A stretch of 46,694 nt of DNA from an uncultured Pseudomonadota bacterium (lineage in GTDB: Bacteria; Pseudomonadota; Alphaproteobacteria; Rs-D84), in the NCBI GenBank assembly GCA_949296475.1, contig CASFOK010000019.1, positions 1 to 46,694 of the forward strand, in the 5' to 3' direction. Of the stretch, positions 14,752 through 44,237 are shown in pieces. The position numbers and the translations under genes are program-made. The number at the start of each line of letters is the position of its first letter. Position 1 is the stretch's first letter. A model generated the notes under the pieces. That model was not told the origin of the DNA. It saw only the letters and a list, made by a program, of their open reading frames with translations, and did no database searches.

Positions 14752-16677
14752 ATGGACATTACACAAATTCTGTTAATTGGCGGCGGCGTTTTGGCAGGCT
14801 TGTTATTTATTACATTGATTGCTTTGTTTTTTGTGTCAAGACGTTCGCAAAAAGTTATGGAATCTTTGTTATTATTGGTAACAAAACCAGAACGGGCAAG
14901 AATCCAGGATGCGTCGCGCGTCTTGCAGACAATTCTGTCGGACGAACTATTAAAAATAGAGTCTAATTTTCAAAATATTAAAGATACCTTGAATGCACAG
15001 ATTGTAACCGCAAATGAATTAAAACAAAACCTTGCAGAGCAAAATTCTGCACTGTTGGCAACCACAGAAGATGTTACAAAGAAATTGGCGGTTATGTCAC
15101 AAAGGCTTGATAACACGGTTGCCGGGTTAAAGTCGGTTGTTGAATCAAACGATTGGCAAGATGTTGAATTATCTACCGACAGATTTAATGCAACCGTTAA
15201 CGACTTGTTAGAAAAAATAAACACAACAAATGCAGAAGTTTCTGAAAAGGTATCGGGTATTCAAGAAAATATAAACACATGGGTAGAGTCTGGCAACGCG
15301 CTTTCAGAGCGTTTACGTGGTGATTTTGATACTAACGAAAAACAAATGCAATCTATCAATGCTGAATATGAAAACATGCAAAATAAACTGACAGATTTGA
15401 ACAATGCCGTAGCAGACGGATTTAAAAACGTAAAAAGTTCGGCTGCGGATTATTCAGAAATCATGAAACAGAATAACAAGGATTTAGACGAACACCTAAA
15501 TAAGATGGATGCGTTTAGTAAACTGTCAAAAAAACAATTAACAAATCAGATGAATACGTTAACAAATACCGCCAATGTTGTTGGTGGGCAAGTTCGTTTG
15601 GCAGAAACGTCAATAGAAATGCAAACAAGAAAATTGACAGAAGCGGTTGAAAATTTAATATCTTCGGCAACCGCAACGGAATCGTCTGTGCGTACCTTGT
15701 CTGGTGAATTGGCAACTTTGACTAACCGGTTTAACGGTGAAATAAAAGAATTCGCAACAAGTGTGGTAACAGAGTTAAAAACTGTATCTGGCGTTGCAAA
15801 TACAACCTTAGAGAATACAAAAACTGCCGCTGGTGCTTTTTCCGAATCTGTTAAAGCAATGGCAACAGGTGTTCGCGAGACATTGATAGAAATGAATACT
15901 GCACATACTCAATTGTCTGGTCAGTCGGCAAATCTTATAAAAATGTCTGCAGAGACGACAGCGCAATTGCAACCGTTGTCAGAATTGATTGAAAAGTATT
16001 ATTCCGCCCTGCCCGACCTGTCACAAAGTTCTGTCACAACCGGCGAAACGCTTGAAAAAATAGTTGCTTCATTAAATGAAAAAATCGCTTTGATGAAAAC
16101 AACTGTATCTGAATCTACGGGTGCAGTTACGGAATCTGCAGCAAAATTAGAAAGTCTGGCCGGTCAATCACGTCAACAAATGATAGACCTTATGTCTGAT
16201 TATGCCAAGGCAGTAAATACCATGCAGACCCTGAATAAGCAGATGATGGTGGCGCGCGCCACTGCCCCTATGGATGCGATAAGTACAACACCAGTGGCGT
16301 CTTTTGGACGTATCAGCAGTCAAGACTTTTTGAAACAAAGTGAACGTATGTTTACGAAATTGCACGAACAATCTTTGGATTTAACACGTGCGATTGGGGC
16401 TGATATTCCGGACGTTGTGTGGAAGAAATATCATGCCGGTGATAAAACAATATTTTCAAAATGGTTGGCTAAAATGTTGGGTGCGGCCGATAAAAAAAGA
16501 ATCCGGGATATATTAAAGTCTGATGCGGTATTTCGCTCTCAGGCGACGCAATTCGTTCGCAGTTTTGATAAAATCTTAACCGCCACACAACAAGCCGACA
16601 ATTCTGACAAATTATCGGCTACACTGATAAAGACTGATTTAGGGCAGATTTATATCGCATTAAAAGGACATGTTTAA
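14752..16677 (+). CDS. Membrane-anchored long coiled-coil protein
   Basis: 641 residues. One transmembrane helix (about 5-28) with VSRRSQK after it, then about 480 residues rich in Asn, Thr, Glu, Ala and Leu in heptad-like spacing, resembling MCP or apolipoprotein-like coiled coils. The last 110 residues form a distinct compact domain (from FTKLHEQSLDLTRAIGAD through VWKKYHAGDKTIFSKWL to the C-terminus). I know similar unnamed proteins from Alphaproteobacteria but no function. It has no HAMP or methyl-accepting hairpin tip that I can see. A polar or envelope scaffold is conceivable. A GGGGGG tract upstream may serve as ribosome binding site. Divergent from addA. Confidence 0.75.
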   Translation: MDITQILLIGGGVLAGLLFITLIALFFVSRRSQKVMESLLLLVTKPERARIQDASRVLQTILSDELLKIESNFQNIKDTLNAQIVTANELKQNLAEQNSALLATTEDVTKKLAVMSQRLDNTVAGLKSVVESNDWQDVELSTDRFNATVNDLLEKINTTNAEVSEKVSGIQENINTWVESGNALSERLRGDFDTNEKQMQSINAEYENMQNKLTDLNNAVADGFKNVKSSAADYSEIMKQNNKDLDEHLNKMDAFSKLSKKQLTNQMNTLTNTANVVGGQVRLAETSIEMQTRKLTEAVENLISSATATESSVRTLSGELATLTNRFNGEIKEFATSVVTELKTVSGVANTTLENTKTAAGAFSESVKAMATGVRETLIEMNTAHTQLSGQSANLIKMSAETTAQLQPLSELIEKYYSALPDLSQSSVTTGETLEKIVASLNEKIALMKTTVSESTGAVTESAAKLESLAGQSRQQMIDLMSDYAKAVNTMQTLNKQMMVARATAPMDAISTTPVASFGRISSQDFLKQSERMFTKLHEQSLDLTRAIGADIPDVVWKKYHAGDKTIFSKWLAKMLGAADKKRIRDILKSDAVFRSQATQFVRSFDKILTATQQADNSDKLSATLIKTDLGQIYIALKGHV

Positions 16678-21857: not shown

Positions 21858-23604
21858 AATGCTCATGTTCTTCGGTTTTGTGTTCCGGCTGATAAATTTC
21901 TACGTCGCGCGTCATGGCAATGAACTTTTCTGCACGACGCCGAGACATCTCTTCGGCGGGTTGCTTTTGCAAATCAAGAACATGTTCTGCAACGGCGTTT
22001 GCCAATAACTCCATAGTGGTTTGCCAATCTGTATGGGCGCCGCCAGCCGGTTCGTTGATTATCTGATCAATTACATTTAAATCCGCCATATCGCGTGCCG
22101 TTAACTTCATTGCTTCGGCGGCTTCGGCTTTGTACTTGTTATCTTTCCATAATATGCTGGCACAAGATTCAGGTGCAATCACAGAATATATAGAGTTTTC
22201 TAACATTAATACTCTGTCGCCCGTACCAATCGCAATCGCGCCACCACTGCCGCCTTCGCCAACATTAACCGCAACATACGGTGTATTTATTGAAAGCCCC
22301 GTTGCGATAGAAGACGCAACTGCTTGCGATTGACCGCGTTCTTCGGCTGCACCACCAGCAAAGGCACCCGCGGTATCAAACAATGATATCAATGGCAGTT
22401 TGAACTTTTCAGCAAGACGCATAAGTCTTTGGGCCTTACGATAACCTTCGGGGTTTGGCATGCCAAAACGATGAAATTGGCGTGTCTCTATTGTGCGACC
22501 TTTTTCTTGTCCGATTATAACCGCAGGAATACCACGCCAAAATCCCAGGCCACCGCACATTGCAGGGTCTTCGCCGAACAGTCTGTCGCCTGCTAGGTAT
22601 GTCCAATCATCAACAATACCATTTATGTAATCCAAGAAGTGAGGTCTGTTTTCATTTCTGGCAAGCAGCACTTTGTCATATGCTTCGCTTTCGCCCATGC
22701 CACGAACTTTTTTTGTATCTGTGACAGGTGTGGTTACGTTGATTGTTTTTGGTTCGCGTGATTGTTTCGTTAAAACTGCCAAGATTTTTTCTATTTTCGC
22801 TTTTAATTCGTCACGAGGTACCACCATGTCTACCATTCCGTGCTCGTACAAATAATCTGCAGTTTGGAAATTAGACGGTAATTTTTCACGAATGTTTTGT
22901 TCAATAACGCGACGCCCCGCGAAGCCAATTCGCGCGCCCTTTTCTGCAATATGAATGTCGCCCAACATTGCAAAAGACGCGGTTACCCCACCAAATGTTG
23001 GGTCTGTTAATAGTACGATATAGGGAATACCGTTTGCATGCAGTTTATTAACGGCGACCGTCGTTCGCGCCATCTGCATCAATGACAAGATATTTTCTTG
23101 CATTCTTGCACCACCACTGCACGTAACCATTATAAACGGCTGTTTAAGTTCTATGGCATGTTCCATGCTTGCAACAATGCCGTCACCTGCGGCACGTCCC
23201 ATAGAGCCCAACATAAAATCACCGTTCAATATACAAATGGTCGTCGGAATACCGCCAATAACGCCGTCTGCTGTTGTTATTGCGTCGTTATAGCCTGTAT
23301 CTGCCCTTGCCTCTGCCAGACGGTCCTTGTATGACATACGGTCTACGAAATTTAACGGGTCATCTGACACTGTTGGCAGTTTTAATTTAACCCACTCGTT
23401 ATTATCAAACAACAAATCAAAACGTTGTTTAGGCGTCATTATAAATGCGCGCCCGCATCTGGGACATATATAGTTATTACTTTTATAATCTTTGTAATAT
23501 ACCAAGCGACCGCACGCTTCGCATTTTATCCACATCAAGCGACGAACGCGTTCATAACGTTCGCGGTTATGGTTTTTTATACCTGCTTTTGTACCAAATA
23601 ACAT
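21856..23604 (-). CDS. accDA: Fused acetyl-CoA carboxylase carboxyltransferase beta-alpha (AccD-AccA)
   Basis: 582 residues. The N-terminal half is AccD: a four-cysteine zinc ribbon (C28, C31, C47, C50) and the crotonase-like core with CSGGARMQE, DPTFGGVTASFAMLGD and GFAGRRVIEQ. The C-terminal half is AccA: RPHFLDYINGI, LFGEDPAMCGGLG, RFGMPNPEGYRKA, LFDTAGAFAG, EERGQSQAVA and EGGSGGAIAIG. Together they transfer the carboxyl group from biotin to acetyl-CoA, the first step of fatty-acid synthesis. Most proteobacteria encode these as two genes; here the two domains are one uninterrupted frame without an extra linker of note. Followed by a terminator; three bases after the HU-like gene. Confidence 0.95.
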   Translation of the reverse strand: MLFGTKAGIKNHNRERYERVRRLMWIKCEACGRLVYYKDYKSNNYICPRCGRAFIMTPKQRFDLLFDNNEWVKLKLPTVSDDPLNFVDRMSYKDRLAEARADTGYNDAITTADGVIGGIPTTICILNGDFMLGSMGRAAGDGIVASMEHAIELKQPFIMVTCSGGARMQENILSLMQMARTTVAVNKLHANGIPYIVLLTDPTFGGVTASFAMLGDIHIAEKGARIGFAGRRVIEQNIREKLPSNFQTADYLYEHGMVDMVVPRDELKAKIEKILAVLTKQSREPKTINVTTPVTDTKKVRGMGESEAYDKVLLARNENRPHFLDYINGIVDDWTYLAGDRLFGEDPAMCGGLGFWRGIPAVIIGQEKGRTIETRQFHRFGMPNPEGYRKAQRLMRLAEKFKLPLISLFDTAGAFAGGAAEERGQSQAVASSIATGLSINTPYVAVNVGEGGSGGAIAIGTGDRVLMLENSIYSVIAPESCASILWKDNKYKAEAAEAMKLTARDMADLNVIDQIINEPAGGAHTDWQTTMELLANAVAEHVLDLQKQPAEEMSRRRAEKFIAMTRDVEIYQPEHKTEEHEH

Positions 23605-33732: not shown

Positions 33733-35490
33733 ATGAAACAATATATTTTACCTTTTCGTGATTTGGTCGTACACCCTGGTCTGACTGTGCCGGTGTATAT
33801 TGATAACCCAATGTCCGTTGCCTGCATAGAAAGCGCGTCTGTGGTCGGGCAAAAGTTGGTTTTGACGCCACAACATAGTTGGGCATATCCGACGTCTGCC
33901 GATGATATATATAAAGTTGGCACAATCGGCGACGTTACGCATGTATTACGTATGCCAGACGGGGCATTACACGTTATTCTAAAAACAACAGATGCGGTTA
34001 AATTAAGTGACATCAGCGTTAACAACGGTTTATTCAGTGCAAACGTAACACCCATTAGATTTTTTGATGACGCCAAAAGCGAACAAACGCTTGCTTTGCG
34101 CGATAAGGTCGCTGAAAACCTGCAGTTATTATCAGTCGCCAGGAAATTCAAACTTGATAAATTGCGCGCAATAATACAAGGATATCCTTTACCTGCCTTT
34201 ATAGACTATGTAATGCAAACAACTGGCATGGATACAGACGATGCGGTCAAGGTTTTGATAACTACATCTTGGCGTAAAAAATTAATGATATTGCTGGAAC
34301 AAATAACTTTGATGGCGGAAACCGCAAAGATAGAAGATTCTATTAATAAAAGAATTCATCAACAAATGGAAAACGGTCGTCGTGAGGCCATATTACAAGA
34401 AAAAATGCGCGCGATACAGCGTGAAATGGGCGAAGATAGCGAAGAGATGGATACAGAAAACATGCGAAAGCGCATTGTTAACTCTGCAATGCCCGCCGAG
34501 GCCAAAGAAAAAGCGTTGTCAGAATGGAAACGTATGCGCAGTATGTCGCCAATGTCAAACGAAGGCGGTCTGTTAAAAACATATTTAGACGAGTTGTTGT
34601 CTATGCCGTGGGGCAAATCTGACAAAAACAAAATAGACTTAAAAACTGCACGCAACGTTTTAGACTCGCAACATTCTGGTATGCAAGGCGTAAAAGAAAG
34701 AATCTTGGAACATATCGCCGTAATGAAAAAAACAGGCGGTAACCAGGGCAGTATTTTATGTTTTGTCGGTGCGCCCGGCGTTGGAAAAACTTCGTTATGC
34801 AAATCTATTGCGGATGCATTGGGACGTAAGTATCAGCGGATTTCACTGGGCGGGATTTCTGACGAGGCGCATTTCCGCGGACACAGAAAAACATATATAG
34901 GCGCACAAACCGGACGCATAATGGACGCATTAAAACGTTGCAAGTCAAACAACCCAGTAATTGTCTTGGATGAAATAGATAAAATGGGGCGCGATTGGCG
35001 TGGTGATCCAGAGTCCGCGTTGTTGGAAATTCTGGACCCGGAACAAAACAAATCTTTCCGCGACCATTATTTAGAGGTAGATTTTGATTTGTCTAATGTA
35101 TTATTCATCGCAACGGCAAACAGTTTGAATATGTCAAACGCATTAAAAGACCGTATGGAAATCATAGAAATTCCAGGATACAACGAAGATGAAAAAGTGC
35201 AGATTGCGCGCGAACACCTAATTGCACGTGCCGCAAGGGATACAGGTTGGAATCCCAAAAACATAACCTTGGGCGATAATGCAATAAGACACATTATACG
35301 TAATTATACAACCGAAGAAGGCGTACGCGAATTACAACGTGAAATTACCGCAGTTTTGCGCCGTTCTTTGCTGGAACACGACGGTGAAGATATCAAAACG
35401 AACTTTACACCTAAAAAGATAGATGAATTATTATCCTACAGAAAACCCGCAGGATTTGCAAAACGCATAGGTTTCGGCGTCAGAGTTTAA
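33733..35490 (+). CDS. lon: Lon-like AAA+ protein lacking the protease domain
   Basis: 585 residues (full Lon is about 780-800). N-terminal substrate-binding domain from LPFRDLVVHPGLTVPVYID, long helical linker (EAILQEKMRAIQREMGED), then a complete AAA+ module: Walker A GAPGVGKT (346-353), GGISDEAHFRGHRKTYIGA, Walker B VIVLDEID (409-416), sensor ATANSLNM and the Arg finger region LKDRMEI, plus the small alpha domain to EEGVRELQREI. The protein then stops after KRIGFGVRV. The Ser-Lys protease domain (PKDGPSAG and the catalytic Lys strand) is absent, and tsaB begins 18 nt later with its own ribosome binding site. It could act as an unfoldase or chaperone, or be a decayed Lon. lon-tsaB-rimI form one operon. 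Confidence 0.9.
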   Translation: MKQYILPFRDLVVHPGLTVPVYIDNPMSVACIESASVVGQKLVLTPQHSWAYPTSADDIYKVGTIGDVTHVLRMPDGALHVILKTTDAVKLSDISVNNGLFSANVTPIRFFDDAKSEQTLALRDKVAENLQLLSVARKFKLDKLRAIIQGYPLPAFIDYVMQTTGMDTDDAVKVLITTSWRKKLMILLEQITLMAETAKIEDSINKRIHQQMENGRREAILQEKMRAIQREMGEDSEEMDTENMRKRIVNSAMPAEAKEKALSEWKRMRSMSPMSNEGGLLKTYLDELLSMPWGKSDKNKIDLKTARNVLDSQHSGMQGVKERILEHIAVMKKTGGNQGSILCFVGAPGVGKTSLCKSIADALGRKYQRISLGGISDEAHFRGHRKTYIGAQTGRIMDALKRCKSNNPVIVLDEIDKMGRDWRGDPESALLEILDPEQNKSFRDHYLEVDFDLSNVLFIATANSLNMSNALKDRMEIIEIPGYNEDEKVQIAREHLIARAARDTGWNPKNITLGDNAIRHIIRNYTTEEGVRELQREITAVLRRSLLEHDGEDIKTNFTPKKIDELLSYRKPAGFAKRIGFGVRV

Positions 35491-37797: not shown

Positions 37798-37874
37798 GGG
37801 TTAGTAGCTCAGTTGGTTAGAGCGGAGCGCTCATAACGCTTTGGTCGTGGGTTCAAGTCCTACCTAACCCACCA
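37798..37874 (+). tRNA. tRNA with CAU anticodon, probably tRNA-Ile(k2CAU); CCA encoded
   Basis: Acceptor GGGTTAG/CTAACCC, D-arm GCTCAGTTGGTTAGAGC, anticodon loop CTCATAA (CAU), T-loop TTCAAGT, discriminator A and encoded CCA. The variable-region sequence TTGGTCGTGGGTTCAAGTCC resembles bacterial tRNA-Ile2, whose C34 becomes lysidine (TilS) to read AUA, more than initiator (no C1-A72 mismatch, no GGG-CCC anticodon stem). Elongator tRNA-Met is the alternative. Confidence 0.85.
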
Positions 37875-37915: not shown

Positions 37916-37996
37916 ATTAATTTTTGATTTAGATATTTTTTCTCTTGCACTGAGTAGGCGTTTTTTTCTAAGATAATAGATAAAAGAGAGGAAGAA

Positions 37997-40900
37997 ATGG
38001 AGAAACTGCGCAGTTTTCTTGGCATTTTAGTGTCATTATTTATTATTTCCATAGCCGGCAAAGCGTTGGCCGATGATGCATATGTTTGTCCCGACTTAAT
38101 AGAATATACAAAATGTAACGAAAATTTTTATTTGGCTGGCAACACGTGCGAGGCATGTCCAAGTGGAAGCTATTTGTTTGAAAACGGGTACAGCGCGTAT
38201 TGGCAATCCACGACAGAAGATTTAAACACAAGCGAATCTTGCGAATGTCCTACGTACTGGGAAGCACAAGGTGGCGGCAACCAAGTAACGTATGGCAGTG
38301 TATGCGTTCCGCAAGCCGTGGAATGTAAACCAGGGGAATTCTATAATACTCTATCAAATGAATGCGAGATTTGTCCTGCTAACTTTTACTGTCCTGGTGG
38401 CTTAATATATCCTGCAAATCAAGTAAGCCATGGCGGTCAAATAAACTGTCCAAAAGGATATCCGTACTCAGAGCAAGGTGCGGCATCCATTACCGAATGT
38501 TATCGCGATGAAACGGAAGTAAAATGGACTGGCACGCAAAAAGAATGTAAATTACCAGAAAATTGCGCCTCTATGAAATGCGAAAAATGTTCTTTGCCTA
38601 ACTGCAAGTTTAAAATATATTGCAATGAAGACGGTCAAACGGATGCGCCATTGCCCCCATGCGACGACCCTTGCGAGCAAAAAATTGTTTATCTTGAAGC
38701 AAATCCGGGGGCTTTCACCGTCGGAACAGATGGATGTAAAATGTGCCCTGAAAAATATCAAGACGGCCCAGGCGTAACAAGTGAAGCCGATTGTGTAAAT
38801 TATGAAACAAAATATGGTAAACAGTTAGACCCAGCATTACCAGATGGTTGCGTTGATATGAAGTTGGGCACTTGTTCGCCAAAAACATGTCAGATAGTTC
38901 ATACGTATGGCGGCGAAACAATTGACTGCACAGCACAAGATTGTACGAAGCCGATAACCAGCGTGTCTTCTGCTGAAAATCATTATGCTTCGGGTGATTC
39001 TTGTATAGCGTGCGAGACAGGCTACAAGGCACCTGCCGGCGCGACAGATCCAAAAGAATGCGTGAAAGAATGTTCGGTTAGATGTACACAACCAACGTGT
39101 CCAGAAAATAGTGAAAACTGCGAAATCACAGAATCCTTCACAATAGGTAACGAGAATCAGGTTGATAAAGTGTGTGATGCAGTACCCAAGGTCTGCGACA
39201 TGACATTTTCTTGTAAAAAAGGATATAAAGAATATGAAGGAAAATGTATACCAGAAACATATACTGCATCATATGATTGTGGCACAGGCGGCGGTACGGC
39301 ACCAGGCAGTTCTTCCCAGCAATACGGCGGTAAATATACAATAGAAAAAAACAGTTGTGAAAATCCGGGATTTAATTTCGTTGGCTGGGGTGACGGTACA
39401 AGCGTTCAACAACCCGGTGCGATTACATGGACTTATACTTCTAATATAACATTTACCGCACAATGGGTCCCCTGCCAAAACGACCCCAGCGCCGTTGGCA
39501 CCTGTGGTTGTGCAGAAAAGCAATATCCAAACGGTAACGGTTGTTCAGATTGTGTTGTATCTTGCGAAACCGAAGTAGAATTTAATCAAGGTACATATAA
39601 CGTATGTAATTCAGAAACGACAAGCCGTTGTTACAGGAATTGTACAACGTCTGATGTTTTGCATTCTTCTGCTGTAACAGGTACAATTACCAAGGGTGGC
39701 ACAAATACCTGTAAGGCAAGCGCATGTTTGGTTAATTATTTCCTAGATAATGGTCAATGCTTGGCTTGTGTAGAAAATGCTACTTGCCCGGGCGGCACTG
39801 AATCGTTTAAGTGCAATACTGGATATCATACTTCTGCAGACGGTAACAGTTGCGAACCCGACGAATACCAAATAACTCTGAACAAAAATGGTGGTACGGG
39901 CGACATTAATGGATATACCGGTACAACAGACGCGGTACAGACTTGCCAATACGGTGTACTGTGCTATCTGCCGACCGAAGGTCTAACAAGAACAGGATAT
40001 GAATTTACCGGCTGGGGCGACAATGCAGGTTGTACAAGCGGTGTATTACAAGACACATTTACATCCAGCAAAACCTTATATGCTTGTTGGTCACAACAAA
40101 CAACACAATGTCAAGCGGGAAAATACTATGACGGCGAAAATCACATAGAATGTCCTTCTGGTAAATTCTGTCCAGGCACCGGTTTCGCAAACATTGGGCA
40201 ACCTGGTTGCGCGTCTGATTGCCCGGCAGGATATGACGGTTCAACACTTGGCGCAAGCGCTGTCACTGCTTGTTACAAAAACTGTGGTGGTAAATCTATT
40301 ACAGGCGGTACAGCAACTGTTGTAGCCCCGCAAGTATTCTATAACGGCGCATCATATCCAGCGTGCACTTATAATGTTACATGTAACGAAGGATATGTCG
40401 CATTTGGTCAAGGAACTGCGGGTGCAACTTGCATAAAGTGTCAAGATGGTGAATATTGTCCTGGTGGTGCCGGTGAAAGTCCAGAAGATTGTCCAGCAGG
40501 CTCTTATTGCGAGGAAGGCATTAAAAAAGATTGCCCTGTTGGCGGTACATCACAATCAGGTGCCGGTTCCATTAACGAATGCTATAAAGTATGTCCACCT
40601 ACCCTAGAAATTCCAAACGGTCAGGGGGTATCAACCGGCAATCAGTATTATGACGGTTCTGTATATCCAGAATGCTTGTTTAACGCGAATTGCGATGAAA
40701 ATTATGTCGCGATAAACAGCCCTAGCACGAATCCTGCGTGTATATGGGGCGACCCAGGCGACTGTCCTGTTGGGTTCTATTGCCCAGAAGACGGCAGTGG
40801 TCCTATTCCGTGCCCAGACGGTGGTACATCATTGGCGGGTTCAACAGCAGTTACACAATGCTATAAAATATTTGACCCGTATTCAGAGTTTCAAAATGGC

Positions 40901-43900
40901 GTTGCTTCTGCGAAATGTTACTATATAGAACAAACATCAAAATATGAAAGATGCAGCATTCTGGAAGTACAAAGTTGTAAAGCGGGCTATTGGTATGCAA
41001 CGCCAAACGCATTCTTGTGCAGCGGTACGGAAAGTGGTTATTACAGCCCTGAAAACGATATAATACAAACGGCTTGTCCGACAGACCCCAGTGGCGGCGC
41101 GGTTGAATCATCAGAATACGCAGACAGTTATACAGACTGTTATAAAACATGCACCATAGAGGTTCCAAATTCTACATCCGTTGCGGCTGAAAACAATACC
41201 GTTTATGGAATTAGCGCGGATTCTTATGCGGCATGCTCTTTCGCGGTTACGTGTAAAACAGGTTATACTGTTGTTGCAAATAATACAGCGGCACCTTCTT
41301 GTAAAGCAAATGAATATACCGTTATACTTAACAAGAACGGTGGTAACGGTTCTGTACCTGCAAGCGTAACATGCACTTTTGACAGCGGCAGTTGCGAATT
41401 ACCCGCAACAACTGGTTTAACAAAATCGGGCTATACGGTTGTTAACAAATGGTGCACTGATGCAAATGGTGGAACGCCTTGTTATACAGCAGGTTCAACG
41501 GTCTCTACGAACATATCAGCGACGGGTCAAAACGTAACATTATATGCGGTATGGACGCCCAATGTATATGCCATACAACTTGACCACCAAAATGCTGATG
41601 TCACAGGCACGCCAAATACAGCGTATTTAAAGTACGCAACAGGTTGGTTTAGCGACGCATCCGCGGCTTCGCCGTTAACGAATATGACGCGTATACCAAA
41701 CAAGACAGGTTATGAGTTTGCCGGTTATTACAGTGCCGTCTCTGGTGGTACACAGGTGATAAACGCCACTGGTTTATTCCAAACGGCAACAAATGCACTG
41801 ACGTTTACTGCGGCACCTGCCACAATCTATGCCAGATGGGCAGCAGGTACGACAACTTGTGATGCAGGCTCTTATTACCCAGGAACGGGCACTTTATGTT
41901 CTGTCTGCACGGAAAACAATTATTGTCCGGGTGGCAGTTTTGCAACAGACAGCGGTCAAGCCGAAGGTTTGCACGCCTGCCCAAGCAACGGTATTTCACC
42001 AAGCGGTGCCGCAAGTGTTAACGAATGTTATAAAACAGACTTAAATTATACCGCGACACACGGTTCAGGAACACAAACCTGTTATTATAATCCGACTGAA
42101 TTTGATTACACATCTGCATGTCAGGATAAAAAAATAACACTTTGTCATGCTGGATACTATTTAGCAGAAACATCAGATACAGACTGTGGCGCAGTTGGTG
42201 TCGGTTATTACAGCCAAGGTACAGGAACCACCCGCGCACAATGTCCTAATAACGGTCTGACGGAAACCGATACGTCCACAATGATTCAAAATTGTTATAA
42301 AGACGGCGTTCTGTATACAGCGGTCTATGGTTCTGGTACCCAAAGATGCTTCTATTCCAGCGGCACAGGGGCAAGCGCAATCTATCAACGCGATTGTGAC
42401 ACAAAAACTATCAACAGCTGTTGGGGTGGTTATTGGCTTGCAACCCCAAGTGACACAGACTGCATTCCTGTGGGCAAAAATTATTATAGTAACACAGGGG
42501 ACACAGAACGCTTTGCATGCCCAAGCAACGGCAAAACGGAAAGCAATACCGCAGAAGAAATTAAACAGTGTTACAAAGATGGCCTGCCATATACCGCGGC
42601 CCAGCATGGAATAGGTGAATACTTGTGCTATTACACCAGCGGTACAGGTGACAGTGCAATCTATGCGTCTAGTTGTGAAACACCGACAATGACAAGTTGT
42701 GACGCAGGATACTACTATAATAAAGTACAAAAAGAAGATGACTGTATCGCTGTCGGAATTGGTTATTACAGCCCAGATATTGAAACATCTAGGTCACAGT
42801 GCCCAGACAACGGCTTGACAAAGACAACAACCAGCGCGGCGATAACGGACTGCTATAAGACGGGTTTGTCATGTATTATAACCAACGGTCAAGGCACCCA
42901 AACATGTAATTATAATCCAGGTTCAAATAATTATTCGGGTTCTTGCCAGACGTGCGTTGTAACACAATGCGACGAAGGTTTCTCGCTGGTTGACAACGCT
43001 TGCATAACTTGCCCTGCCGGCAGTGTATGCTATGACGGTAAACAGCAAACGTGTTCAGAACTGACAGGCGGACAATATACAGAGTCTGCCCCAGGTACAA
43101 CCGATGTAGCAAAATGTTACAAAAATTGTACTTTGGCAGAAAATGCTGTATCTATGTCAGGACGCGATTACTACACTGCACCTGATACATGCTCTATAGA
43201 TAAATGTGTGTTGGGATATGTATTAGATAACAACAGTTGTACAAAATGTCCAGCAGGCAGTTATTGCGATGGAATGTCTGAAAATGCTTGTACCGGTTTA
43301 GGCGACGGATCTTGGGCAAATTCTTTACCGGGCGCAAGCGATTCCAAAAGTTGTTATAAGAACTGCACGGCATACCCTGTCATTAACGGTACCGCGATAC
43401 CGATTAAAGACACCGTATACTATCCAGAAAACTGTGAATTCCGTGGCGAATCAGATTCTGGCAATCCTTGCGAAATCATAGACGGCGTCTGTGTTGAATC
43501 AGCATGCAAACCTGACCAAGAAATGCAAAATGGCGCATGTGTACCTTGCGATCGCGAAAATGCGTTGTCATATAAACCAACAGGTAATTGCCAAGTTGCA
43601 TCTTGCATATACGGATATCATCCACGTGGCGATATGTGTGAATATGACATAAAAGAATGCGATATACCAAACGCTGTTTATGCTGAACAAAAGTGGGATA
43701 ATAAGTTACAAGCCTTTGGACCTTGCAAAATATTAGAATGCAATGACAGATATCACTTGGCATCTAATGCATGTGTATCTGATGTCCAGCAATGTAATGT
43801 AAATAACGGCGTTGGATTTAAAGAGTGGGATCACGCAAAGAATACATGGGGCAAATGCATGGCAAATGAATGCGACCCAGGTTATACAAGTGACCCGTCT

Positions 43901-44161
43901 GAAACTGATGATAAAGTTAGTCAATGCGGCGAATGCAAAAATAAATACAGCAGCCTTGGTGAAGTAGCAGTCAGCAGTTACGTACGCGGGTGTGAGATTG
44001 CATCTTGTATGTATCAAGGTGAATTGTATAACTTGGAAAACAACGAATGCGTTCCAATTTGTCCGCAAGAAATGTACGAAGACGAAACCGGAACAATGGT
44101 GTGGGATAAAACCAAGAAAAAGTGCGTCCGTACATGTAAAGACGGTTATACAATGTGGTAA
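37997..44161 (+). CDS. Giant secreted cysteine-rich repeat protein with InlB-like B-repeats
   Basis: 2054 residues. Signal peptide MEKLRSFLGILVSLFIISIA with cleavage near ALA at 25, then a chain of short Cys-rich modules with the pattern CPAG-x-YC-x-GG ... G-x(2,6)-ECYK, like the GCC2/GCC3 or ephrin-receptor-like Cys-rich repeats. Four InlB/Listeria-type B-repeats (starting near residues 422, 624, 1107 and about 1190) show the xVxLNKNGGTG ... GYEFTGW ... LYAxW signature. Residues 1348-1709 hold four tandem copies of a module of about 90 residues. Well over 100 cysteines, suggesting many disulfides. No C-terminal anchor, barrel or autotransporter is visible. Ribosome binding site GAGAGGAAG. 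Likely a cell-surface or secreted adhesin; its secretion route is unclear. Confidence 0.88.
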   Translation: MEKLRSFLGILVSLFIISIAGKALADDAYVCPDLIEYTKCNENFYLAGNTCEACPSGSYLFENGYSAYWQSTTEDLNTSESCECPTYWEAQGGGNQVTYGSVCVPQAVECKPGEFYNTLSNECEICPANFYCPGGLIYPANQVSHGGQINCPKGYPYSEQGAASITECYRDETEVKWTGTQKECKLPENCASMKCEKCSLPNCKFKIYCNEDGQTDAPLPPCDDPCEQKIVYLEANPGAFTVGTDGCKMCPEKYQDGPGVTSEADCVNYETKYGKQLDPALPDGCVDMKLGTCSPKTCQIVHTYGGETIDCTAQDCTKPITSVSSAENHYASGDSCIACETGYKAPAGATDPKECVKECSVRCTQPTCPENSENCEITESFTIGNENQVDKVCDAVPKVCDMTFSCKKGYKEYEGKCIPETYTASYDCGTGGGTAPGSSSQQYGGKYTIEKNSCENPGFNFVGWGDGTSVQQPGAITWTYTSNITFTAQWVPCQNDPSAVGTCGCAEKQYPNGNGCSDCVVSCETEVEFNQGTYNVCNSETTSRCYRNCTTSDVLHSSAVTGTITKGGTNTCKASACLVNYFLDNGQCLACVENATCPGGTESFKCNTGYHTSADGNSCEPDEYQITLNKNGGTGDINGYTGTTDAVQTCQYGVLCYLPTEGLTRTGYEFTGWGDNAGCTSGVLQDTFTSSKTLYACWSQQTTQCQAGKYYDGENHIECPSGKFCPGTGFANIGQPGCASDCPAGYDGSTLGASAVTACYKNCGGKSITGGTATVVAPQVFYNGASYPACTYNVTCNEGYVAFGQGTAGATCIKCQDGEYCPGGAGESPEDCPAGSYCEEGIKKDCPVGGTSQSGAGSINECYKVCPPTLEIPNGQGVSTGNQYYDGSVYPECLFNANCDENYVAINSPSTNPACIWGDPGDCPVGFYCPEDGSGPIPCPDGGTSLAGSTAVTQCYKIFDPYSEFQNGVASAKCYYIEQTSKYERCSILEVQSCKAGYWYATPNAFLCSGTESGYYSPENDIIQTACPTDPSGGAVESSEYADSYTDCYKTCTIEVPNSTSVAAENNTVYGISADSYAACSFAVTCKTGYTVVANNTAAPSCKANEYTVILNKNGGNGSVPASVTCTFDSGSCELPATTGLTKSGYTVVNKWCTDANGGTPCYTAGSTVSTNISATGQNVTLYAVWTPNVYAIQLDHQNADVTGTPNTAYLKYATGWFSDASAASPLTNMTRIPNKTGYEFAGYYSAVSGGTQVINATGLFQTATNALTFTAAPATIYARWAAGTTTCDAGSYYPGTGTLCSVCTENNYCPGGSFATDSGQAEGLHACPSNGISPSGAASVNECYKTDLNYTATHGSGTQTCYYNPTEFDYTSACQDKKITLCHAGYYLAETSDTDCGAVGVGYYSQGTGTTRAQCPNNGLTETDTSTMIQNCYKDGVLYTAVYGSGTQRCFYSSGTGASAIYQRDCDTKTINSCWGGYWLATPSDTDCIPVGKNYYSNTGDTERFACPSNGKTESNTAEEIKQCYKDGLPYTAAQHGIGEYLCYYTSGTGDSAIYASSCETPTMTSCDAGYYYNKVQKEDDCIAVGIGYYSPDIETSRSQCPDNGLTKTTTSAAITDCYKTGLSCIITNGQGTQTCNYNPGSNNYSGSCQTCVVTQCDEGFSLVDNACITCPAGSVCYDGKQQTCSELTGGQYTESAPGTTDVAKCYKNCTLAENAVSMSGRDYYTAPDTCSIDKCVLGYVLDNNSCTKCPAGSYCDGMSENACTGLGDGSWANSLPGASDSKSCYKNCTAYPVINGTAIPIKDTVYYPENCEFRGESDSGNPCEIIDGVCVESACKPDQEMQNGACVPCDRENALSYKPTGNCQVASCIYGYHPRGDMCEYDIKECDIPNAVYAEQKWDNKLQAFGPCKILECNDRYHLASNACVSDVQQCNVNNGVGFKEWDHAKNTWGKCMANECDPGYTSDPSETDDKVSQCGECKNKYSSLGEVAVSSYVRGCEIASCMYQGELYNLENNECVPICPQEMYEDETGTMVWDKTKKKCVRTCKDGYTMW
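42038..43123 (+). repeat. Four tandem copies of a module of about 90 residues inside the giant protein
   Basis: Copies begin at 42038, 42302, 42578 and 42860 (88, 92, 94 and about 88 codons). Each starts with a Y/I-T-like strand and a C-x-Y pair (TCYYNP, RCFYSS, LCYYTS, TCNYNP), has a CxAGYY-like centre, and ends in CPxNGxT-x(n)-CYK. Copies 1-3 are close; copy 4 is degenerate. A distant fifth copy lies near 40870. Nucleotide identity is low, so this is old duplication, not a DNA-level array. Confidence 0.75.
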
Positions 44162-44169
44162 ACAATATT

Positions 44170-44197
44170 GCCCCGGTAAAATGTATCGGGGCTTTTA
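44170..44197 (+). terminator. Terminator after the giant gene
   Basis: GCCCCG/CGGGGC with an 11-nt loop and TTTTATT, eight bases past the stop codon. Confidence 0.75.
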
Positions 44198-44237
44198 TTG
44201 ATAGATTTTTATAGTTTAATTTGCTATTTATTATAGT

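Follow-up and report, generated by a model that had tools for sequence, protein, structure and literature searches.

A giant cysteine-rich protein with InlB repeats as a candidate surface fiber of reduced-genome gut Alphaproteobacteria

InlB B-repeats occur in Listeria internalin B and in many surface proteins of gut bacteria; small cysteine-rich hairpin modules follow one another in the cysteine-rich domain (CRD) of Eph receptors, in ELAPOR1, and in the mastigoneme protein Mst1; and one C-terminal domain is placed on different mosaics in proteins with the type IX C-terminal domain (CTD), an autotransporter barrel, or the LPXTG motif. Giardia variant-specific surface proteins and ciliate Cys-rich surface antigens are long, exported, and Cys-rich; their C-terminal end is conserved and their N-terminal part varies. 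Here, we analyzed a 46,694-nucleotide stretch of DNA (the window) from an uncultured alphaproteobacterium (contig CASFOK010000019.1, assembly GCA_949296475.1), whose longest gene, at positions 37997 to 44161 of the forward strand, encodes a Cys-rich mosaic (2054 codons plus stop; 167 Cys, 8.1%) with likenesses to each of these systems. The product is of a known kind, the large repeat surface protein, and is probably a Sec-exported, disulfide-stiffened surface fiber held by its C-terminal domain and contacting a partner or host through a variable N-terminal tip; its outer-surface location, orientation, and binding are what we infer from the comparisons below. In the literature searched, which mostly left out subscription journals, we found no account of anaerobic Alphaproteobacteria with reduced genomes in which eukaryote-like Cys rods are combined with InlB repeats and C-terminal domains specific to a clade. 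The genome carrying the window (882 kb, 97.7% complete; the window is its contig C19) appears to lie in or near Candidatus Enterousia, order Rs-D84, a placement resting on its named relatives, which are Candidatus Enterousia and metagenome-assembled genomes labeled "uncultured Alphaproteobacteria" and "Rickettsiales," many of them from guts. Candidatus Enterousia and its kin are uncultured gut bacteria with reduced genomes, mostly below 1 Mb, for which neither a respiratory chain nor flagella have been reported and whose proposed lifestyle is biosynthesis-poor and partner-dependent, with no known contact apparatus (PMC12306168). The giant protein provides a concrete, conserved candidate for contact between Enterousia-type bacteria and their partners.

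The gene is real and under purifying selection. Its translation gives exactly 2054 residues with no longer open reading frame in the window, as the earlier note had stated, and the product of its nearest relative (L041) also counts 2054 residues and aligns without gaps. The dN/dS ratio of this pair (Nei-Gojobori) is 0.10 overall and 0.04 to 0.22 by region beyond the signal peptide, close to the range of the neighboring genes (0.03 to 0.19). Together with the full-length relatives that many genomes contain, at about 1000 to 4400 codons, these values rule out an artificial frame, a concern that the earlier note had raised. The start point is common to relatives (MEK/MGKxRxFLGFL) and is preceded by a putative Shine-Dalgarno-like sequence, AGAGAGGA (37984 to 37992, forward strand, ahead of the ATG at 37997; read from the letters). 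The first 25 residues, MEKLRSFLGILVSLFIISIAGKALA (37997 to 38071, forward strand), were assigned by eye as a signal peptide, consistently with the shared motif and start and with what had been claimed before. Downstream of the stop codon, a putative terminator-like inverted repeat, GCCCCG...CGGGGC, is followed by TTTTATT (44170 to 44199, forward strand; likewise read from the letters). The whole protein has no sequence match in the PDB at an E value of 0.01.

All features of the mosaic lie on the forward strand. The signal peptide is followed by a variable Cys-rich N-terminal region (38072 to 39265, residues 26 to 423), presumed from identity and divergence comparisons to be the distal tip; InlB B-repeats 1 (39266 to 39469, about residues 424 to 491; borders set by eye within the Pfam stretch count) and 2 (39866 to 40084, residues 624 to 696; Pfam); Cys modules; InlB B-repeats 3 (41306 to 41563, about residues 1104 to 1189) and 4 (41564 to 41848, about residues 1190 to 1284) back to back; a rod of tandem Cys-rich modules ending in CYK (41849 to 43354); and the C-terminal domain. 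The CYK motifs of the rod fall at residues 1344, 1433, 1525, 1619, 1707, and 1786, i.e., with a period of 88 to 94 residues in the tandem part. The four InlB B-repeats announced in the earlier note were recovered by Pfam as four stretches of PF09479 (Flg_new/InlB B-repeat; 63.5 bits versus a cutoff of 27; E value, 2e-17), and NCBIfam TIGR02543 scored 28.6 bits (cutoff, 20.95). An AlphaFold2 model of residues 1090 to 1719, built with 34 relatives, reached a pLDDT of 91 and a pTM of 0.42, the latter being low, as would be expected for an elongated chain of domains that lack a fixed mutual orientation. In this model, residues 15 to 100 (repeat 3) align with the Listeria InlB B-repeat 2y5p_D (Z, 7.8; 2.5 Å over 72 residues; 29% identity), and residues 100 to 195 (repeat 4) also align with InlB (Z, 6.8). 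The top Foldseek match of the model was the Chlamydomonas mastigoneme filament (Mst1; E value, 7e-6), and VIA returned, more weakly than InlB, thyroglobulin (Z, 5.7), ELAPOR1 (5.5), Eph CRDs (4 to 4.8), and TNFR modules as well. The description of the Cys modules as eukaryote-like is thus fair for the predicted Eph/TNFR/ELAPOR-like fold but does not extend to family membership by sequence, since PF07699 (Ephrin_rec_like/GCC2_GCC3) scored 16.3 bits, under its curated cutoff of 23.1. Low VIA Z scores to eukaryotic Cys modules may reflect a common arrangement alone, and the predicted likeness is no proof of transfer from eukaryotes. Unlike internalin B, the giant protein has no leucine-rich internalin domain and no LPXTG or GW anchor, and its B-repeats are a minority inside a Cys-rich rod of a Gram-negative bacterium.

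The earlier note had reported no recognizable membrane anchor or barrel, which holds for known families but overlooked a conserved C-terminal domain, here called type A (43274 to 44158, residues 1760 to 2054). In relatives, this domain spans 270 to 295 Cys-rich residues and ends at the stop codon; an alignment of 71 sequences shows 26 Cys columns with at least 90% conservation, and in 20 of these every sequence that covers the column has the Cys. The terminal residues are mostly GYxxW (GYTMW here, 44144 to 44158), and the final residue is W in 72 of 77 relatives. The type A model (pLDDT, 92) consists of short strands and beta hairpins throughout. Neither Foldseek (best E value, 0.018) nor VIA (best Z, 3.1, to R-spondin Fu domains) gave a convincing match, which does not make the predicted fold new, and the type A profile had no sequence match in the PDB at an E value of 1. 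Known sorting devices were not matched: no C-terminal barrel of type V autotransporters was matched in Pfam or NCBIfam, the NCBIfam models of the type IX CTD had no match at an E value of 0.1, and the C-terminus, ...CVRTCKDGYTMW, holds neither an LPXTG motif nor a helix followed by a basic tail. Type A resembles the type IX CTD, autotransporter barrel, and LPXTG in being one C-terminal domain on different mosaics, but its predicted structure is one of Cys-rich hairpins, not of an Ig-like CTD or a barrel, and it has no Pfam or NCBIfam match. Conserved C-terminus and variable N-terminus also recall the Giardia and ciliate antigens, a likeness that serves here as a lead; unlike those, the giant protein lacks a C-terminal transmembrane helix with a cytosolic tail and a GPI signal, and ends in GYxxW.

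The locus is fixed, but the front of the protein varies. The same gene order is found throughout the family (Lon-like, TsaB, RimI, helicase, tRNA-Met, giant gene, FAD oxidase, hydrolase). Here, tRNA-Met(CAU) (37798 to 37874, forward strand) lies immediately upstream of the giant gene, and a tRNA-Met adjoins the giant gene at all 16 loci scanned, at one of them on the opposite strand. Such a tRNA directly upstream could suggest phage-borne or mobile cargo. This explanation is already disfavored and highly improbable: the order of the locus is constant, viral contigs hold no relative of the C-terminal domain, phage records gave a single weak match (24.5%; E value, 2e-4), no PHROG was matched, and type A distances track those of the flanking oxidase (27 loci; Mantel r, 0.60; P = 0.0005). 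The N-terminal 300 residues follow the oxidase less closely (r, 0.33), and mean protein distances across the same loci are 0.39 for type A, 0.42 for the oxidase, and 0.73 for the N-terminal 300 residues. By these measures, the C-terminal domain evolves like a housekeeping gene. Identity to almost every relative drops from the C-terminus to the N-terminus (e.g., from 63% to 24% for L076), a divergence gradient that, as read from sequence comparison, is what a fiber would show if its base were conserved and its tip free to change. Synonymous divergence (dS) from L041 ranges from 0.09 (residues 841 to 1090) to 1.25 (residues 27 to 150), a spread far wider than one history would be expected to give, which points to probable segment exchange by recombination between modules.

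The same data bear on a structural alternative, in which the protein would form a disulfide-linked mesh stiffening the envelope from the periplasm, like the chlamydial Cys-rich proteins OmcA and OmcB, with no direct role in contact. A signal peptide, many Cys residues, a C-terminal half with housekeeping-like conservation, and the absence of any recognized outer-membrane anchor in Pfam and NCBIfam would all suit such a mesh. Nevertheless, N-terminal variation goes far beyond the needs of a structural part, complete relatives longer than 1000 residues spread from 1052 to 3398 residues (the longest relative reaching 4430), InlB repeats typically occur in surface proteins, and the gene is missing from many relatives. 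Moreover, MreB, RodA, and MrdA have been reported in these bacteria (PMC12306168), so that a peptidoglycan wall is likely. We therefore consider an envelope mesh improbable.

As far as tested, type A seems to be confined to a single family, Candidatus Enterousia and its relatives (order Rs-D84), which are gut Alphaproteobacteria with reduced genomes. At an E value of 0.001, its profile matched 116 of 183 family genomes in 11 of 13 genera, about 95 of them below 1e-30 (counted from the table). The weaker matches, which are partial, include another conserved family, of about 800 to 1050 residues, with one to several copies of the type A repeat unit. In a sample of the class (385 genomes), matches were limited to four genomes of the same genus and one marginal case, and a search of 16 genomes of the order Rs-D84 outside the family with the whole protein returned weak matches in three. 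As a side observation, the 800- to 1050-residue proteins are exported and join a Ser/Thr/Arg-rich N-terminal part to their type A Cys/Trp units (L123:2067-4460:+, L124:4287-7388:-, L125:2344-5367:+, and L126:1682-4123:+).

How some 80 possible disulfides are made is a puzzle in an anaerobe for which no respiratory chain has been reported and neither DsbB nor VKOR could be detected. All the presence and absence counts that follow come from protein-family searches, each covering 30 genomes of the order; a DsbA-like protein was found in 28, including all 21 that are at least 90% complete. The one encoded in the genome of the window (G000:C7:7578-8090, L136) has 275 residues, a CPYC site, and a long N-terminal extension; the earlier note had suggested looking for a dedicated DsbA, and this DsbA-like protein is unlinked to the giant gene. 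N-terminal extensions turn some DsbA relatives, i.e., Wolbachia alpha-DsbA2 and the ScsC proteins of Caulobacter and Proteus, into disulfide isomerases (PMC6450060). In anaerobic Escherichia coli without DsbB, polysulfides restore disulfide formation in its place (PMC11921322), which makes the disulfide question testable, and polysulfides are a possible oxidant in the gut.

No dedicated secretion or chaperone gene adjoins the giant gene, whose neighbors are housekeeping-like according to Pfam, NCBIfam, and locus comparison. A single secretin was found in 27 of the 30 genomes, beside a TcpQ gene in the genome of the window (G000:C11:35066-35566; L168:10010-11635:-), and a sister family carries the same secretin in a type IVb pilus/type II-like TcpQ-secretin-PilO-T2SSE-T2SSF operon (L171:4698-11699:-). 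Type II systems export folded, disulfide-bonded proteins from the periplasm. Along with the exact conservation of the C-terminus, this would fit release of the protein through such a machine to the medium or onto a neighboring cell, the C-terminal domain then being an export signal rather than an anchor. Giant gene and secretin are, however, genetically unlinked and, to our knowledge, no C-terminal signal domain is known for a type II system, which makes release unlikely, if less so than the mesh. In one relative (L169), a type B-like Cys-rich gene (see below) adjoins the secretin, an isolated hint.

In the surface-fiber reading that we prefer, the signal peptide would direct the giant protein through Sec, and the DsbA-like CPYC protein would help to form or shuffle its disulfides in the periplasm, itself served by a presumed oxidant. 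The protein would then cross the outer membrane, for which the secretin machine is the sole candidate seen. The conserved Cys-rich domain at the C-terminus would anchor the folded rod to the cell, with the variable N-terminal Cys-rich region facing outward and binding a partner cell, a host surface, or mucus. The N-terminal concentration of variation fits the host-contact or adhesion role proposed in the earlier note, with surface location, binding, and host contact all presumptive. Four points weigh against the surface fiber. Neither an anchor nor a signal for outer-membrane export of any known type was recognized in Pfam or NCBIfam. About half of the family genomes have no strong type A match, so that this way of life does not depend on the protein. 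DsbB and VKOR were found in none of the 30 genomes, the same search detecting DsbB in Caulobacter and E. coli, which leaves oxidation unexplained. Finally, positive selection at the tip is unsupported in the L041 pair: dN/dS stays at or below 0.22, and thus below 1, everywhere past the signal peptide, giving no sign of selection by immunity or phages.

The giant protein is not alone in its genome. A search for paralogs, as the earlier note had advised, was fruitful: P0002 is a Cys-rich protein of 741 residues whose residues 1 to 218 share 28% identity with residues 1 to 242 of the giant protein (E value, 5e-20), and relatives hold multigene arrays. The C-terminus of P0002, like that of other giant proteins in relatives, is formed by another conserved domain, type B (...TTPSLNVxxxGxxYYGNM...YxVYDDS, or more generally ...YYxNM...YxVYDDS), which occurs on Cys-rich/InlB-type proteins in 148 of 173 family genomes, up to 12 times per genome, in frames of <100 to >6000 codons. 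Examples in relatives lie at L035:226-555:-, L038:108-437:-, L038:5227-5556:-, L040:17673-18002:+, and L133:7113-7442:-. The genome of the window has two type B matches at an E value of <1e-7 (G000:C1:23-304, L173, and G000:C10:18727-18930, L172), one of them at a contig end, and the end of P0002 is a divergent case. Judged by sequence, type A and type B, as alternative ends of interchangeable mosaics, resemble signals for anchoring or sorting, and the type B ends of giant Cys-rich proteins hint at an undescribed scheme of this sort. A bolder version, which we put forward as doubtful, is an undescribed mode of surface display in which interchangeable Cys-rich/InlB mosaics, each ending in one of the two clade-specific domains as a sorting or anchoring signal, would be exported folded via the secretin machine and oxidized without DsbB, perhaps by polysulfides. 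Whatever their function, type A and type B domains provide a means of cataloging every protein of this sort. In one relative (G021:C3), two giant type A genes of 4430 and 2859 residues form a tandem array (L033:2373-15665:- and L032:6201-14780:-).

Three other genes of the window are worth recording. That at 14752 to 16677 encodes a protein of 641 residues for which Pfam gave no confident match. The Lon-like gene of the conserved locus (33733 to 35490; 585 residues) has substrate-binding, AAA+, and lid domains, but no protease domain was matched; similar lengths are found in relatives. At 21859 to 23604, the beta (zinc ribbon) and alpha parts of acetyl-CoA carboxylase are joined in a single frame of 582 residues.

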